From positions 144,910 to 208,909 of the forward strand of contig JAMNXP010000002.1 of NCBI GenBank assembly GCA_023653095.1: a stretch of 64,000 nt of DNA, in the 5' to 3' direction. Under the pieces are notes generated by a model. It was not told the DNA's origin and did not search any database. It saw nothing but the letters and a program-made list of their open reading frames with translations. A program made the position numbers and the translations under genes. Of this stretch, positions 5,952-52,582 are shown one piece after another. This stretch comes from Bacteroidia bacterium. Its GTDB lineage: Bacteria; Bacteroidota; Bacteroidia; NS11-12g; UBA955. How positions within the stretch are numbered: position 1 is the stretch's first letter; every line of letters begins with the position of its first letter.

Positions 5952-8573
5952 ATGAGAATGAATAGAATTATACCATTTACCTTATCTGCAGGACTACTAG
6001 CCGTAGTTGCTGTGGGTGGGTTAAAACAAGGACTGCCCGGTTTCAAAAATGCTGAGTTGAAAAATGAAGCTACCGGCGCCGAGCAACACATTCGTGGAGC
6101 TATTGAATCGATCTACAGTCTTCGTTTCAATGAAAAAACCGGCGACTTAAATCCTCAATGGATGGCAGATGCAGTTCAACAAGCAGATAATCTTAAATCA
6201 ATTGCAAAAAGATTGAACAAAAAGATTGAATGGACCAATATGGGTCCTGACAACGTGGGAGGTAGAATTCGTGCATTTTTGATTTCAAACAAAGATCAAA
6301 AAGTGTGGTTTGCTGGCGGTGTTAGCGGTGGTTTGTTCCGTTCAAGTACTTCAGGACAAAGTTGGGCCCCCGTCAACGACAGGCAAGAAAATTTAAATGT
6401 TACTTGCATTGCTCAAACCCCTGATGGAAAGGTTTATTATGGAACTGGAGAGGGTGGATTTACCAACCTTGGTGGTACTAGAAATGGTTCTCCTGCGTTC
6501 TACGGAAACGGAATTTATGTGAGTTCAGATGAAAAAGGGACTGCTTTCTCATTGATGAACGAAGCTAAAGACAATCGCTTTTACGAATGCAATGGCATGG
6601 CTTCACATCCAAAAGAAAATAAATTCTATGTGGCTTCTGAAGCTGGTTTGTATGAATTTGACATGACTGGAGCAACAGCTAAAATTACACGTTTAACTGC
6701 GGGTTCAGTGAAAGAAGTTAAATTAGATAGCAAAGGGGTAATCTGGGCTACCACTTCCAACGGTTCTGTTTACAAAAAGGAAGATGGTCAAGCCATCAAA
6801 ATAGTAAATCAAGGCTTCAGCTCTGGTGGAAGAACCGCAATCGCAATCTCTCCTGACGATGACAACTACGTTTACACCATGGGTGCTGGCGGAGCCGGTG
6901 CAAATTACGGTCGTTTAGTGGGTGTGTATCGCACTACCGATGGTGGTGCAACTTGGGAGCAAATCATTGTAGGTAACTCAAACAATAACATCTTCTCTTC
7001 AAACAACCAAGGTTGGTACGATAACGTAATTGGTGTGGTTCCAGGCAAGAAAGATGAGGTGATTTTAGGTGGTGTTAATTTGGCCCGTTGGGATAAAGTC
7101 AACGGATACCGTGAATTTGCATCAACCTTTGGTGCTCCTTGGAACTCAGAATATGTGCATGCCGACAAGCACATGATTACATGGAATATGAACACCAAGC
7201 CAGCAACTTGTATAGTAGGTTGCGACGGTGGATTGTTCGCTTCTCAAGATTATCAAACTTGGACGTCCATCAATCGTGGATTTACCACCCTTCAATTGTA
7301 CAATGTAGCTGCAAATTCACTTGGACATATTGTTGGTGGTTCACAAGATAACGGTACTCAATTGATAAACTTCTCAGGAAACTCATTCAACGGTATTCCG
7401 TCAAAAACGGCCATTTCAATTTACGGTGGTGACGGATTTGATGTTGAATTCAGTAAATATGACCCACGTGTTGTGTTTATGTCTATTTACTACGGTACTG
7501 TAGTTAGATCAAATAACTCTGGTCAATCATCATCCACTTTCTGGGATGATCGCCAAGCAGGAACGGTACAAACAGACTTCAATACCACTTACAATCTTTG
7601 GGAAAAGAATGAAAAAGAGTCAAGATTATTCTTAGCTAAAAACAATCAAGTATGGATGGCAACCAATCCAACAGATTTTGCAAATCCTGTAAATTGGTTC
7701 TTAGTAGGAGATGCGTTGGGTGGAAGCCGAATCATTGAAATGGATTACACCACTGACGGTAACCACTTGTTCATCGCAAAAGCAAGCGCATTGTTCCGTT
7801 TAGATGGATTAAATGACGCTACGTTCACTTTAGATGCAAATCCAACAGCTACCAAAGTTCCTGATGGAATTGTACAAAAGCAATTGGGATTGGGTGGCGC
7901 AGCTGGCAGAACAGTTACTTCGGTAAATGTGAATCCTGAGAACTCTAACCATGTTGTAATCACTCTGGGTGGTTACGGAAACTCAAGTTATGTTTATGAA
8001 ACTGAAAATGCTCTAGATGACGCTCCAACATGGAAAAACATCACTGGCAACTTGCCAAGTATGCCTGTTTATGATGCAGTGATTGACGTTGATGATCCAG
8101 ATAGAATTATTTTAGGAACGGATTTGGGTGTTTGGGTTACCGAAAACGGTGGAACCAAATGGGAAGAAGCAAACGACGGAATGGCTCGTGTGCCAGTATT
8201 TGAAATTCGTGGATACGAGTGGAAGCCTTGGGAAGGTATGCGTTTGTATATCGGTACTCACGGTCGTGGATATTACCAGAGCACAAACTTGTTAACTTCA
8301 ACCAAGAAGATGGCTAAGAGTTCTTTCGAAATGACTTTGTCACCAAATCCATCAAAAGACATTGCTCATGTGAATTTCCGCTCAAATGGTGGAAAAGCAA
8401 TTATAAGAGTGGTTAGTATGGAAGGTAAATCAGTGATGAACCAAAGTTTAAATGCTCAAGTGGGTGATAATCAAGTTCGCTTAGATGTGTCTACCTTGAA
8501 ATCAGGTTACTACTTTGTTCAGGTTACTTTGGCAAACGGTACAAGTACGACCCAAAAATTAATGGTTCAATAA
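5952..8573 (+). CDS. T9SS-exported sortilin/BNR-type beta-propeller protein
   Basis: An 873-residue exported protein. It has an N-terminal signal-like segment (about 1-25), then repeated WxxxxxG / S-x-D-x-G-x-x-W Asp-box (BNR) motifs, such as SGQSWAPV, DGGATWEQI and NGGTKWEEA, as in VPS10/sortilin-type multibladed propellers. It ends in a type A T9SS sorting domain (about 795-873: a SPNPSKD start, a SMEGK turn, a GYYFVQV strand, terminal KLMVQ). Such proteins are exported to the periplasm by Sec and delivered to the cell surface by T9SS. No glycosidase or peptidase catalytic motif is evident, so adhesion or ligand binding is possible. An intrinsic terminator lies just beyond the stop, inside dapF. 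Confidence 0.85.
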   Translation: MRMNRIIPFTLSAGLLAVVAVGGLKQGLPGFKNAELKNEATGAEQHIRGAIESIYSLRFNEKTGDLNPQWMADAVQQADNLKSIAKRLNKKIEWTNMGPDNVGGRIRAFLISNKDQKVWFAGGVSGGLFRSSTSGQSWAPVNDRQENLNVTCIAQTPDGKVYYGTGEGGFTNLGGTRNGSPAFYGNGIYVSSDEKGTAFSLMNEAKDNRFYECNGMASHPKENKFYVASEAGLYEFDMTGATAKITRLTAGSVKEVKLDSKGVIWATTSNGSVYKKEDGQAIKIVNQGFSSGGRTAIAISPDDDNYVYTMGAGGAGANYGRLVGVYRTTDGGATWEQIIVGNSNNNIFSSNNQGWYDNVIGVVPGKKDEVILGGVNLARWDKVNGYREFASTFGAPWNSEYVHADKHMITWNMNTKPATCIVGCDGGLFASQDYQTWTSINRGFTTLQLYNVAANSLGHIVGGSQDNGTQLINFSGNSFNGIPSKTAISIYGGDGFDVEFSKYDPRVVFMSIYYGTVVRSNNSGQSSSTFWDDRQAGTVQTDFNTTYNLWEKNEKESRLFLAKNNQVWMATNPTDFANPVNWFLVGDALGGSRIIEMDYTTDGNHLFIAKASALFRLDGLNDATFTLDANPTATKVPDGIVQKQLGLGGAAGRTVTSVNVNPENSNHVVITLGGYGNSSYVYETENALDDAPTWKNITGNLPSMPVYDAVIDVDDPDRIILGTDLGVWVTENGGTKWEEANDGMARVPVFEIRGYEWKPWEGMRLYIGTHGRGYYQSTNLLTSTKKMAKSSFEMTLSPNPSKDIAHVNFRSNGGKAIIRVVSMEGKSVMNQSLNAQVGDNQVRLDVSTLKSGYYFVQVTLANGTSTTQKLMVQ

Positions 8574-8574
8574 A

Positions 8575-9372
8575 TCAATAAAGACCGTTAAAAACAAATT
8601 CAGCGGGTCCGTTCAACCAAATGTTGACGAACCCGCTTTTTTTATGCTCAAAAGTTACCGAAAGATTTCCTCCTCGAGTGGAAACATGGATTTCTCCACG
8701 CTCCAGATTTTTCTTGATGGCATAAGAAAGCGCAGCAGCTGTAACACCGGTTCCGCAGCTGTATGTTTCATCTTCAACACCTCGCTCATAAGTTCTCATA
8801 CTTAATGCGTTTTCAGCGGTGATTACTGCTCTATTTACGTTAATTCCCTCTTTTTGGTATTCATCAGAATATCGAATTCCTTTTGCCCAAGAAACTAAAT
8901 CAAACGTATTGATATCCTCCTGTGAATTTGAAGCATTGAAATGTACGAAATGAGGAGAACCCGTATTCATGCAGATAACGTCCTTAGATTTTACTTCCCA
9001 ATCCTGTACATCTATCATCTTTAATTTGACCCAGTTGTCTTCAACTACCGCTTCATGAGGGCCGTCAGGTGCGTAAAACAACAATCTTCCATCATTGCTA
9101 AGGCCAAGAGCGTTTGCCCAGTGGGCAATGCATCTTCCTCCGTTGCCGCACATGCTGCTTAAATTGCCGTCGGAGTTGTAGTAAATCATCTCAAAGTCAT
9201 AGCCTTCGGTGAGTTTGAGAATCATCAAACCGTCGGCACCAATGCCAAACCGTCGATCACACATTTTTGATACATCCAATGAGTATTCGGTAAATCTGCC
9301 GTCAATTAAGATGAAGTCATTCCCCGTACCTTGGTACTTGACGAAGGGGATGTTATCCGAATTCAAGATCAT
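8575..9372 (-). CDS. dapF: Diaminopimelate epimerase
   Basis: DapF converts LL- to meso-diaminopimelate by a two-cysteine acid/base mechanism for lysine and peptidoglycan synthesis. Both catalytic cysteine motifs are present: SSMCGNGGRC (about residues 71-80) and YSCGTGVTAAA (about 208-218), as is the N-terminal KYQGTGNDF motif. At 265 residues it is normal length. The start overlaps the preceding anti-sigma-like gene by 4 nt, so the three minus-strand genes sigma, anti-sigma and dapF look co-transcribed. Its stop lies 1 nt from that of the convergent beta-propeller gene. Confidence 0.97.
   Translation of the reverse strand: MILNSDNIPFVKYQGTGNDFILIDGRFTEYSLDVSKMCDRRFGIGADGLMILKLTEGYDFEMIYYNSDGNLSSMCGNGGRCIAHWANALGLSNDGRLLFYAPDGPHEAVVEDNWVKLKMIDVQDWEVKSKDVICMNTGSPHFVHFNASNSQEDINTFDLVSWAKGIRYSDEYQKEGINVNRAVITAENALSMRTYERGVEDETYSCGTGVTAAALSYAIKKNLERGEIHVSTRGGNLSVTFEHKKSGFVNIWLNGPAEFVFNGLY
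8602..8643 (+). terminator. Rho-independent terminator embedded in dapF coding sequence
   Basis: AGCGGGT (8602-8608) pairs with ACCCGCT (8631-8637), with an inner stem including CAAC/GTTG and a 5-nt loop, followed by seven T residues (8637-8643). It terminates the upstream plus-strand gene but lies within the last codons of the convergent dapF gene. Confidence 0.75.
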
Positions 9373-32308: not shown

Positions 32309-32866
32309 ATGAATTTCAAGAAAGTAAGTTTAGTCGTAGCCGCAATGGCCATTTCATCCATCTCTTGGGCGCAACGTACTTCATTGGCGTATATAGATTC
32401 TGACTATATTTTGGGAAGAATGCCAGAATATCAATCTGCTCAACAAGAGTTGAATGATAAGGCTGCTGAGTGGGAACTTGAAGCCGTAAAAAAAGAAAGT
32501 GCACTGACACAGTTGCAAAAAGATTTTGCTGCCGAAGAAATTTTATTGACCTCTGAACAACGTAAACAGAAAAAACAAGCCATTGCAGACTTAGAAAAGG
32601 AGTTGATGGACTTTAGACAGGAAAAATTCGGAACCGATGGTGAGCTATTCAAGAAGAGAGTTCAATTGGTTAAACCCATACAAGATAAATTATTTGACGC
32701 AGTACAAAAGGTGGCAAAACAAGAAGGATTAGACTATGTTTTTGACAAGGCATCAGGTGTTCAAATGCTCTATGCTAATCCCAAATACGATAAAACATTT
32801 GAAGTAATGGAAGAATTAGGAATTCCCTTAACTGAAAATGAAACCCAAAAAACGAATAAACCATAA
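32309..32866 (+). CDS. OmpH/Skp-family periplasmic chaperone (first copy)
   Basis: A 185-residue secreted protein with a signal peptide (about 1-21, ending SWAQ), a short beta-strand (RTSLAYIDSDYILGRMPEYQSAQQEL), long antiparallel helices rich in Lys, Glu and Gln (about 45-125), and a return segment (LDYVFDKASGVQMLYANPKYD). This is the jellyfish-like Skp architecture, which shields unfolded outer-membrane proteins in the periplasm. A second OmpH gene follows after 12 nt. Tandem OmpH genes are common in Bacteroidota. Confidence 0.9.
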   Translation: MNFKKVSLVVAAMAISSISWAQRTSLAYIDSDYILGRMPEYQSAQQELNDKAAEWELEAVKKESALTQLQKDFAAEEILLTSEQRKQKKQAIADLEKELMDFRQEKFGTDGELFKKRVQLVKPIQDKLFDAVQKVAKQEGLDYVFDKASGVQMLYANPKYDKTFEVMEELGIPLTENETQKTNKP

Positions 32867-32878
32867 AATTAAGTATAC

Positions 32879-33388
32879 ATGAAAAAAGTTCTATTCTTAG
32901 TCGCTCTATTTTTTGTAGGAAATGCGGCTTTTGCTCAAACTCAGAAAATTGCCTTTGTTAACATTCAAGCGATTGTTGATACTTTACCTGCTAGGGATTC
33001 AGTTGATATGAAATTGGCTATGATGGCACAAGAATATGAAGGTGCAATCAAGAATTTACAAGCTGAAATTCAAGCAAAAGAGCAAGAATATCAAGCAAAA
33101 GCAGCTTCTGGTGCTTCAAAAGCTACCTTGGAGTTGATTCAAAAAAGTTATGAGCGTTTGATGCAAGATTATCAAGAAACTCAACAAACAGCGCAACGTG
33201 ATTTACAGGCTCAACAAGCAAATTTATACAAGCCTTTGATTGAAAAAATCAAAGTAGCTGCTGGTAATGTTGCAAAAGCAAAGGGCTATTCACACGTCAT
33301 CAATAACGCTGGAGAATTGGTATTGTGGTCAGCAAATGACAAAGACGATATCACGGGAGCGGTCATTGATAGCTTATTGAAAAAGTAA
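32879..33388 (+). CDS. OmpH/Skp-family periplasmic chaperone (second copy)
   Basis: A 169-residue paralogue of the preceding gene. Signal peptide about 1-19 (ending AFAQ), strand KIAFVNIQAIVDTLPARDSVD, a long Ala/Gln/Glu-rich coiled coil (about 50-115) and the return strand YSHVINNAGELVLWSANDKDD. It is co-transcribed with the first copy. The two may form mixed trimers. A tRNA-like gene begins 31 nt after its stop. Confidence 0.9.
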   Translation: MKKVLFLVALFFVGNAAFAQTQKIAFVNIQAIVDTLPARDSVDMKLAMMAQEYEGAIKNLQAEIQAKEQEYQAKAASGASKATLELIQKSYERLMQDYQETQQTAQRDLQAQQANLYKPLIEKIKVAAGNVAKAKGYSHVINNAGELVLWSANDKDDITGAVIDSLLKK

Positions 33389-33418
33389 TTTTTTCGTGCG
33401 ACCTTTGGTTGCATGGTT

Positions 33419-33500
33419 GCCCAGGTGGTGAAATTGGTAAACACCCCGTCTGTTGATGGAAAAGACGAAAGTCTTGCAGGTTCGAATCCTGTCTTGGGAA
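33419..33500 (+). tRNA. tRNA-Leu-like gene with truncated anticodon loop
   Basis: An 82-nt sequence beginning GCCCAGGTGGTGAAATTGG folds as a class II (leucine-type) tRNA. The acceptor stem is 33419-33425 with 33493-33499 (six pairs plus a G1/A72 mismatch). The D stem GTG/CAC is normal. A long variable arm (33462-33466 and 33471-33475, AAGAC-GAAA-GTCTT) and a good T arm (33476-33492, TTCGAAT loop) are present. The only 5-bp anticodon stem (33446-33450 CCGTC with 33455-33459 GATGG) closes a 4-nt loop, TGTT, instead of 7 nt, so there is no readable anticodon. CCA is not encoded. A weak TTG-N20-GACCTTTG promoter lies at 33377-33407. It may be a pseudo-tRNA or a non-decoding RNA. Confidence 0.7.
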
Positions 33501-33531
33501 CTAGTTTGTTTTATTCAATTCCGTTATTTCC

Positions 33532-34362
33532 ATGTCTAAAATAGGTGTCTTTGATAGCGGATATGGTGGACTTACCATTCTCAAGGAGCTAAAATTAGCT
33601 CTGCCTCAATTTGATTTTGTGTATTTGGGAGATAATGCTCGTGCTCCCTACGGCGATAGGTCGTTTGATGTTGTTCATGAATACACTTGGCAGTGCGTGA
33701 AATGGTTGTTTGAAAAAGACTGTGATTTGGTGATATTGGCTTGCAACACCGCGTCAGCCAAAGCTTTAAGGGCCATCCAGCAAACGGATTTACCTGCTTA
33801 TAATTTGAATGCTTCAAAACCAAAACGCGTATTGGGTGTCATTCGTCCCACCACCGAAATAGTAGGAAATATCACCAAAACAAACAAGATTGGAATTGTA
33901 GGTACTCTTGGTACGGTTAAATCTGAATCGTACGTTATTGAGATTGAAAAGTTTTTCCCTCAGGTTAAGGTTTATCAAGAGGCATGTCCTATTTGGGTGC
34001 ATCTCATTGAAAATGAACTTTTGGGACTAGATGGAACGGATTTTTTTGTAAAATACCATCTGGATAGATTGTTTGCTCAAGATTCAGAAATTGATACTTT
34101 GATACTCGCTTGCACTCATTATCCGTTACTTCTTGATTCCATTGAAAAGGTAGTTCCAAGTCAAGTTAAAGTGATGGCACAAGGAGAAATTATTGCTTTA
34201 AGTCTTGCAAATTATTTAGAACGACATCCAGATTTCACAGGCAATTTAAGTCAAAATTCAACGGTTCAGTTTTACACTTCGGAGGTGTACAAAAACTTCA
34301 ATGCTTTGGCAACCGTTTTTTACGGCTCAACGGTTGTGTCAAAACATGCCGATATTGCATAA
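33532..34362 (+). CDS. murI: Glutamate racemase
   Basis: Makes D-glutamate for peptidoglycan. The two catalytic cysteines are C71 (LACNTASA) and C194 (LACTHYPLL), and the N-terminal GVFDSGYGGL carries the conserved D8-S9. Length is 276 residues. It starts 32 nt after the tRNA-like gene and its stop codon directly abuts the uvrC start, so ompH, tRNA-like, murI and uvrC could share a transcript. Confidence 0.96.
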   Translation: MSKIGVFDSGYGGLTILKELKLALPQFDFVYLGDNARAPYGDRSFDVVHEYTWQCVKWLFEKDCDLVILACNTASAKALRAIQQTDLPAYNLNASKPKRVLGVIRPTTEIVGNITKTNKIGIVGTLGTVKSESYVIEIEKFFPQVKVYQEACPIWVHLIENELLGLDGTDFFVKYHLDRLFAQDSEIDTLILACTHYPLLLDSIEKVVPSQVKVMAQGEIIALSLANYLERHPDFTGNLSQNSTVQFYTSEVYKNFNALATVFYGSTVVSKHADIA

Positions 34363-52167: not shown

Positions 52168-52317
52168 AGATTTAGTACAATTTTCGATGTTAAATTGTTG
52201 GTTAGAATGTAAAGAAATCAATGTTTTGTCGAAATTAGCCTAGTCTTTAAGGCTTAACTAATTGTTATTCAAGTTTTTACAATCAATAAAAAAAAATAAA
52301 AAAAATATTGAGAATGC

Positions 52318-52348
52318 TTTGCAGATTCTGAAATTCATTTTATTTTTG
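52318..52348 (+). promoter_or_regulatory. Strong promoter of the small lipoprotein gene
   Basis: TTTG (52318-52321), a 19-nt spacer, then TATTTTTG (52341-52348), both perfect. An A/T-rich tract with A-runs at 52286-52310 lies just upstream and could act as an UP element. Confidence 0.8.
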
Positions 52349-52378
52349 CCACACACTCAATAAAAAATAAAAGGAAAA

Positions 52379-52582
52379 ATGAAAAAATTCACTTTCGCTT
52401 TAGCAGCATGTGCAGCTTTCGCTTTCGCTGCTTGTGGTAACAACAACACTGAAGAGACTCCAGCTGTTGATTCTCCAGCAGTTGAAGAAACTGTAGCTCC
52501 TGAAGTTACAGACACTACTGCAACTGACACTAACGCTGCTGCAGCTACTGAAGCTCCTGCAACTGAAGCTGCTGCTAAGTAA
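52379..52582 (+). CDS. Small acidic Ala/Thr/Glu-rich lipoprotein
   Basis: A 67-residue product. The signal peptide (KKFTFALAACAAFAFAAC) has its lipobox at C19. The mature 49 residues consist almost only of Ala, Thr, Glu, Val, Pro, Asp and Asn, with no basic residue until the final Lys, so it is intrinsically disordered and strongly acidic. It has a consensus promoter, an AAGGA stretch before the ATG and a hairpin terminator, which together suggest a high-level single-gene transcript. The function is unknown. It could be an envelope spacer protein similar in role to small abundant lipoproteins. Confidence 0.8.
   Translation: MKKFTFALAACAAFAFAACGNNNTEETPAVDSPAVEETVAPEVTDTTATDTNAAAATEAPATEAAAK

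Follow-up and report, generated by a model that had tools for sequence, protein, structure and literature searches.

A folded tRNA-Leu relic without an anticodon between ompH and murI in two related freshwater species

Results

The window analysed here, 64,000 nt on contig C2 of a draft genome (2.04 Mb, 75% complete) of a Bacteroidia bacterium, carries two genes for OmpH-family periplasmic chaperones on its plus strand, the first at 32309-32866 (Pfam OmpH PF03938, 3.3e-33) and the second at 32879-33388 (Pfam OmpH, 3.8e-28). The second gene forms the upstream border of a gap that ends at murI, the glutamate racemase gene (33532-34362, plus strand; Pfam Asp_Glu_race PF01177, 2.3e-9). Two features lie in this gap, both on the plus strand. 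One, at 33395-33415, is a 9-bp hairpin, CGTGCGACC-TTT-GGTTGCATG, with no T-run behind it. The other, at 33419-33500, is an 82-nt tRNA-Leu-like element without an anticodon, running from G1 to the discriminator A73 and recognised by ARAGORN, by Rfam, by its predicted fold and by an ortholog in a second species; murI starts 31 nt 3' of it. An earlier note on this DNA had remarked on this tight placement, and the second species, G002, has the same arrangement, with a 93% identical MurI protein in the same place. G002, the nearest relative in our searches, corresponds to a genome assembled from a metagenome under the label Chitinophaga pinensis (CAMDUE010000009.1).

ARAGORN finds a single tRNA in the window, at 33419-33501 on the plus strand, and reports it as 'tRNA-???' with a 2-nt anticodon. 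The Rfam tRNA model (RF00005) accepts 33419-33500 with 30.0 bits, at a cut-off of 29 bits, and gives the G002 ortholog 37.5 bits; among the 28 Rfam tRNA matches in the genome the element is the weakest, the other 27 scoring 49.6-74.6 bits. The minimum-free-energy fold is a complete class II cloverleaf (-28.5 kcal/mol, z = -3.1), so that all the tRNA arms and the class II variable arm described in the earlier note are indeed there. According to the fold and to pair counts against the ortholog, the anticodon arm (33446-33459, plus strand) has 14 nt in place of the normal 17, which agrees with the shortening by about 3 nt that had been suspected. Its predicted 5-bp stem (CCGTC/GATGG) closes on the 4-nt loop TGTT; fold, ARAGORN and Rfam concur that there is no standard anticodon, and fitting the Rfam tRNA model did not produce a normal 7-nt loop. 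Fold and ortholog alignment place the variable arm, with a GAAA tetraloop (GCAA in the ortholog), at 33460-33475, and the T arm, at 33476-33492, is identical in the two species; both lie on the plus strand. Both copies have a weak 1-72 pair, the G-A mismatch already noticed in the window and G-U in G002, and the window copy has CTA in place of CCA. A competing helix that would join the anticodon and variable regions (CGTCT/AGACG), also proposed earlier, can be drawn on paper, but its pairing probability is at most 0.0001 and the forced fold is 6.8 kcal/mol worse, and we reject it as energetically negligible.

A DNA search of 57 relatives returned one strong second match, the G002 copy, which is 83% identical and sits in the corresponding ompH-murI gap. 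Since its anticodon arm, CCGTT-TTTA-AGCGG, is also 14 nt long in a diverged sequence, an error of assembly that removed 3 nt is excluded. The loops are TGTT in the window and TTTA in G002 (CTGTTG and TTTTAA if read as 6-nt loops), so that the copies have no anticodon in common, and neither species has the 7-nt loop with a Leu anticodon that an elongator would carry. Could the element be a working tRNA that decodes by an unusual 4- or 6-nt loop? The complete cloverleaf and the leucine determinants discussed below would suit such a role, but the differing loops speak against it, as does the near identity of ordinary tRNAs between the two species. Moreover G002, which is 99% complete, already has ordinary tRNA-Leu genes with the anticodons TAA, CAA, TAG and GAG (the assembled portion of the window genome shows TAA, CAA and TAG), and these four genes make the element dispensable for decoding. 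We regard a decoding role as extremely improbable; decoding is lost in the element.

Its ancestry can be read from the acceptor, D and T arms, where the ordinary tRNA-Leu(CAG) and (GAG) found in relatives agree with the G002 copy at 49 of 51 positions and with the window copy at 46. On this comparison of sequences, the element derives from a tRNA-Leu gene of the CAG/GAG type. We thus have direct evidence for a folded tRNA-Leu relic that is unable to decode. An origin from a phage or plasmid is rejected: phage and plasmid records gave weak matches only, the best of them an ordinary tRNA-Leu(CAG), and the match on viral contigs was one ordinary tRNA-Leu(TAG). As a separate observation, the viral contig L175 carries two tRNA genes (7990-8087 and 9180-9252) to which ARAGORN assigns 4-nt anticodons (taag and gata); these possibly have enlarged anticodon loops.

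The element so far is limited to two related freshwater species. A look beside murI in related genomes, as the earlier note had advised, found it in G002 and no tRNA at the murI loci of the other 12 genus members. A covariance model brought up no further copy in 70 genomes of the family, 108 of the order, 395 of the class and 395 of the phylum, the best other matches that were typed with ARAGORN being ordinary tRNA-Leu(CAG/GAG); since the model was built from the two copies and favours similar sequence, unlike anticodon-less tRNAs would be missed by it.

How strongly is the element held in place? In its body (acceptor, D and T arms) 4 of 51 positions differ between the window and G002, compared with 3 of 16 in the variable arm and 6 of 14 in the anticodon arm, while identity at fourfold-degenerate sites is 53% for four neighbouring genes and 52% when 30 genes are taken together. 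Taking fourfold sites as neutral gives P = 2.1e-9 for the conservation of the body, a value tempered by the frequent conservation of non-coding DNA near gene starts in this pair. In the anticodon stem 5 of 5 pairs are intact in both species despite four substitutions (P = 0.04), one of them kept through a two-sided change, and across all stems 22 of the 23 pairs survive (P = 0.003-0.018 when substitutions fall at random in paired columns); with two species and one two-sided change, the covariation is thin. Eighteen ordinary tRNAs compared between the same genomes are 95-100% identical, and the element therefore evolves faster than decoding tRNAs and more slowly than fourfold sites.

Other intergenic stretches of this species pair are often 80-100% identical, so the constraint on the element may partly concern something besides the RNA fold. 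Several gaps in the window between 38011 and 60876 show such identity to G002, and fourfold sites are 80-84% identical in the first 20 or so codons and about 50% inside genes, a pattern that suggests strong constraint around gene starts. Intergenic DNA of the pair can also diverge, as it has strongly in part of the gap 52222-52399.

These comparisons bear on whether the element is a decaying tRNA-Leu pseudogene without a function of its own. Its faster evolution than decoding tRNAs, the 1-72 mismatch, the loss of CCA in the window copy and its dispensability for decoding in G002 would all fit such decay. However, the body is conserved far more than fourfold sites, every stem has been kept despite turnover in the anticodon arm, and the upstream hairpin is conserved; neither divergence at the neutral rate nor broken pairs were found, with the caveat that conserved intergenic DNA is common between these two species. 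We therefore think decay without function unlikely.

The hairpin folds in both species and ends 3 nt 5' of the element, and its core resembles GCCACC-TTT-GGTGGC-TTTTTTT of L125. In close relatives (L113-L119, MurI 62-68% identical) the ompH-murI gap holds an intrinsic terminator; this comparison covers the relatives in which the gap could be delimited, the upstream gene at more distant loci not always being assignable. The same script found no intrinsic terminator in this gap in the window species or G002, and a scan of the window gave none here. Judging from a short sequence, we take the hairpin to be a probable remnant of the ancestral ompH terminator.

The earlier note had also allowed for a promoter of the element itself, which our results do not support. 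TAnnTTTG lies upstream of most of the 21 tRNA genes examined in the window genome, but TAnnTT(T/C)G is absent from the ompH-murI gaps of the two species (143 and 142 nt), and we found no promoter of the tRNA type in the gap. Of random 60-mers, 9% score at least as well as the best promoter candidate there. A weak promoter of the element's own, TTG-N20-GACCTTTG, may nevertheless exist, which would count against read-through. With the T-run gone and no consensus promoter, the RNA probably arises by read-through from ompH toward murI. Of the earlier picture of a tRNA-Leu-like gene without an anticodon, perhaps yielding a non-decoding RNA, the core is thus strengthened by the ortholog, the constrained body and the kept pairing, while the promoter and the competing helix lack support.

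Could such an RNA be charged with leucine? In E. coli, leucylation of tRNA-Leu depends on A73 and the D/T hinge and not on the anticodon; variants lacking the anticodon arm remain active, and even loss of both the anticodon arm and the variable arm does not abolish leucylation (PMC9976931). The A73 and hinge determinants of a functional elongator tRNA-Leu are present here, both copies having A73, U8, A14, A15-U48, G18G19, A20a, U54:A58, U55 and C56. LeuRS might then charge the element and the Leu-RNA might be used off the ribosome, for example as a donor for the Leu/Phe-tRNA-protein transferase Aat, which the window genome encodes, or to regulate how much leucyl-tRNA is available; the weak 1-72 pair in both copies may disfavour elongation. 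However, these determinants are also ordinary positions of the tRNA fold, and the window copy has CTA for CCA and the G1-A72 mismatch. Moreover, 13 of the 14 genus members have Aat and nearly all of these lack the element, so the two are not linked. We consider a leucylated, non-decoding RNA an unlikely explanation.

That the element supplies a decoy or spare RNA which anticodon nucleases cannot attack seems to us very improbable. It offers no anticodon to cut, and genes for an AAA_13 and a HEPN protein occur elsewhere in the genome, but both are unlinked to the element and the idea is purely speculative. Apart from this, a second odd tRNA-like sequence in the window genome (G000:C3:68888-68987; L144:3889-3988, minus strand; Rfam tRNA, 49.6 bits) has a long anticodon-loop insert on a CCTGGGC/GCCCAGG stem and ends just upstream of a RiboL-PSP-HEPN gene, near an AAA_13 gene. 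G015, of another genus, has a 94% identical copy of it together with the HEPN gene; the other relatives searched have none.

Discussion

What might a tRNA that cannot decode do between ompH and murI? Our preferred reading, still tentative and ahead of both a leucylated RNA and a pseudogene, is that read-through from ompH to murI produces it as a tRNA-like RNA that does not decode and serves mainly as processing punctuation for RNase P and RNase Z, neither of which requires an anticodon. As its sequence, its shared position and shortened arm and its constrained body show, the element goes back to a copy of a tRNA-Leu gene that, in the ancestor of the two species, settled downstream of the presumed ompH terminator hairpin; its anticodon arm lost three nucleotides, and it has since been kept with a tRNA-like fold that cannot decode. 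With the T-run of the terminator gone, transcripts from ompH would read through into the tRNA-like element and murI. A cut by RNase P on the 5' side would leave the ompH mRNA with a protective hairpin at its end, and one by RNase Z on the 3' side would release the murI mRNA, so that separate ompH and murI mRNAs would be made in place of the lost terminator. The RNA so released might or might not be charged with leucine. Against punctuation counts the similarity of the D loop and variable arm, which goes beyond what RNase P and RNase Z alone would need. The two roles could be combined in a relic that replaces the terminator and is also leucylated, acting both as processing punctuation and as a non-ribosomal leucyl-RNA; this we hold to be quite improbable.

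In comparison with bacterial tRNA-Leu (CAG/GAG), the element shares the class II cloverleaf, A73 and the hinge determinants, and differs in its 14-nt anticodon arm, missing anticodon, weak 1-72 pair and lack of a standard promoter. tmRNA likewise has a tRNA-like domain without an anticodon, but the element has no mRNA part or tag, and it keeps, besides a class II variable arm, a hairpin at the place of the anticodon. Non-proteinogenic tRNA-Gly of Staphylococcus, which serves peptidoglycan synthesis, is another tRNA-derived RNA outside translation; it retains an anticodon and its enzyme partner is known, whereas for the element we know of no such partner. The precedent that the earlier note had cited, tRNAOther of Bacillus cereus, does resemble the element in being a reported non-translational tRNA-like gene, but the parallel is looser than implied: tRNAOther has a Trp anticodon, is transcribed within a larger RNA, is poorly lysylated in vitro and lies at an unrelated locus (PMC3399842). 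Our searches for anticodon-less bacterial tRNAs, which covered part of the literature, gave no match, including no such tRNA-Leu. Non-decoding pseudo-tRNAs are already known, tRNAOther among them.

More generally, a tRNA gene that stays constrained in two species although its anticodon is gone would uncouple what a tRNA fold is used for from decoding. The element may offer a natural case, open to testing, in which a tRNA at a defined site between two genes of the cell envelope has been recruited to other work and, if our reading of the hairpin holds, in which a tRNA-like element has taken the place of a terminator.
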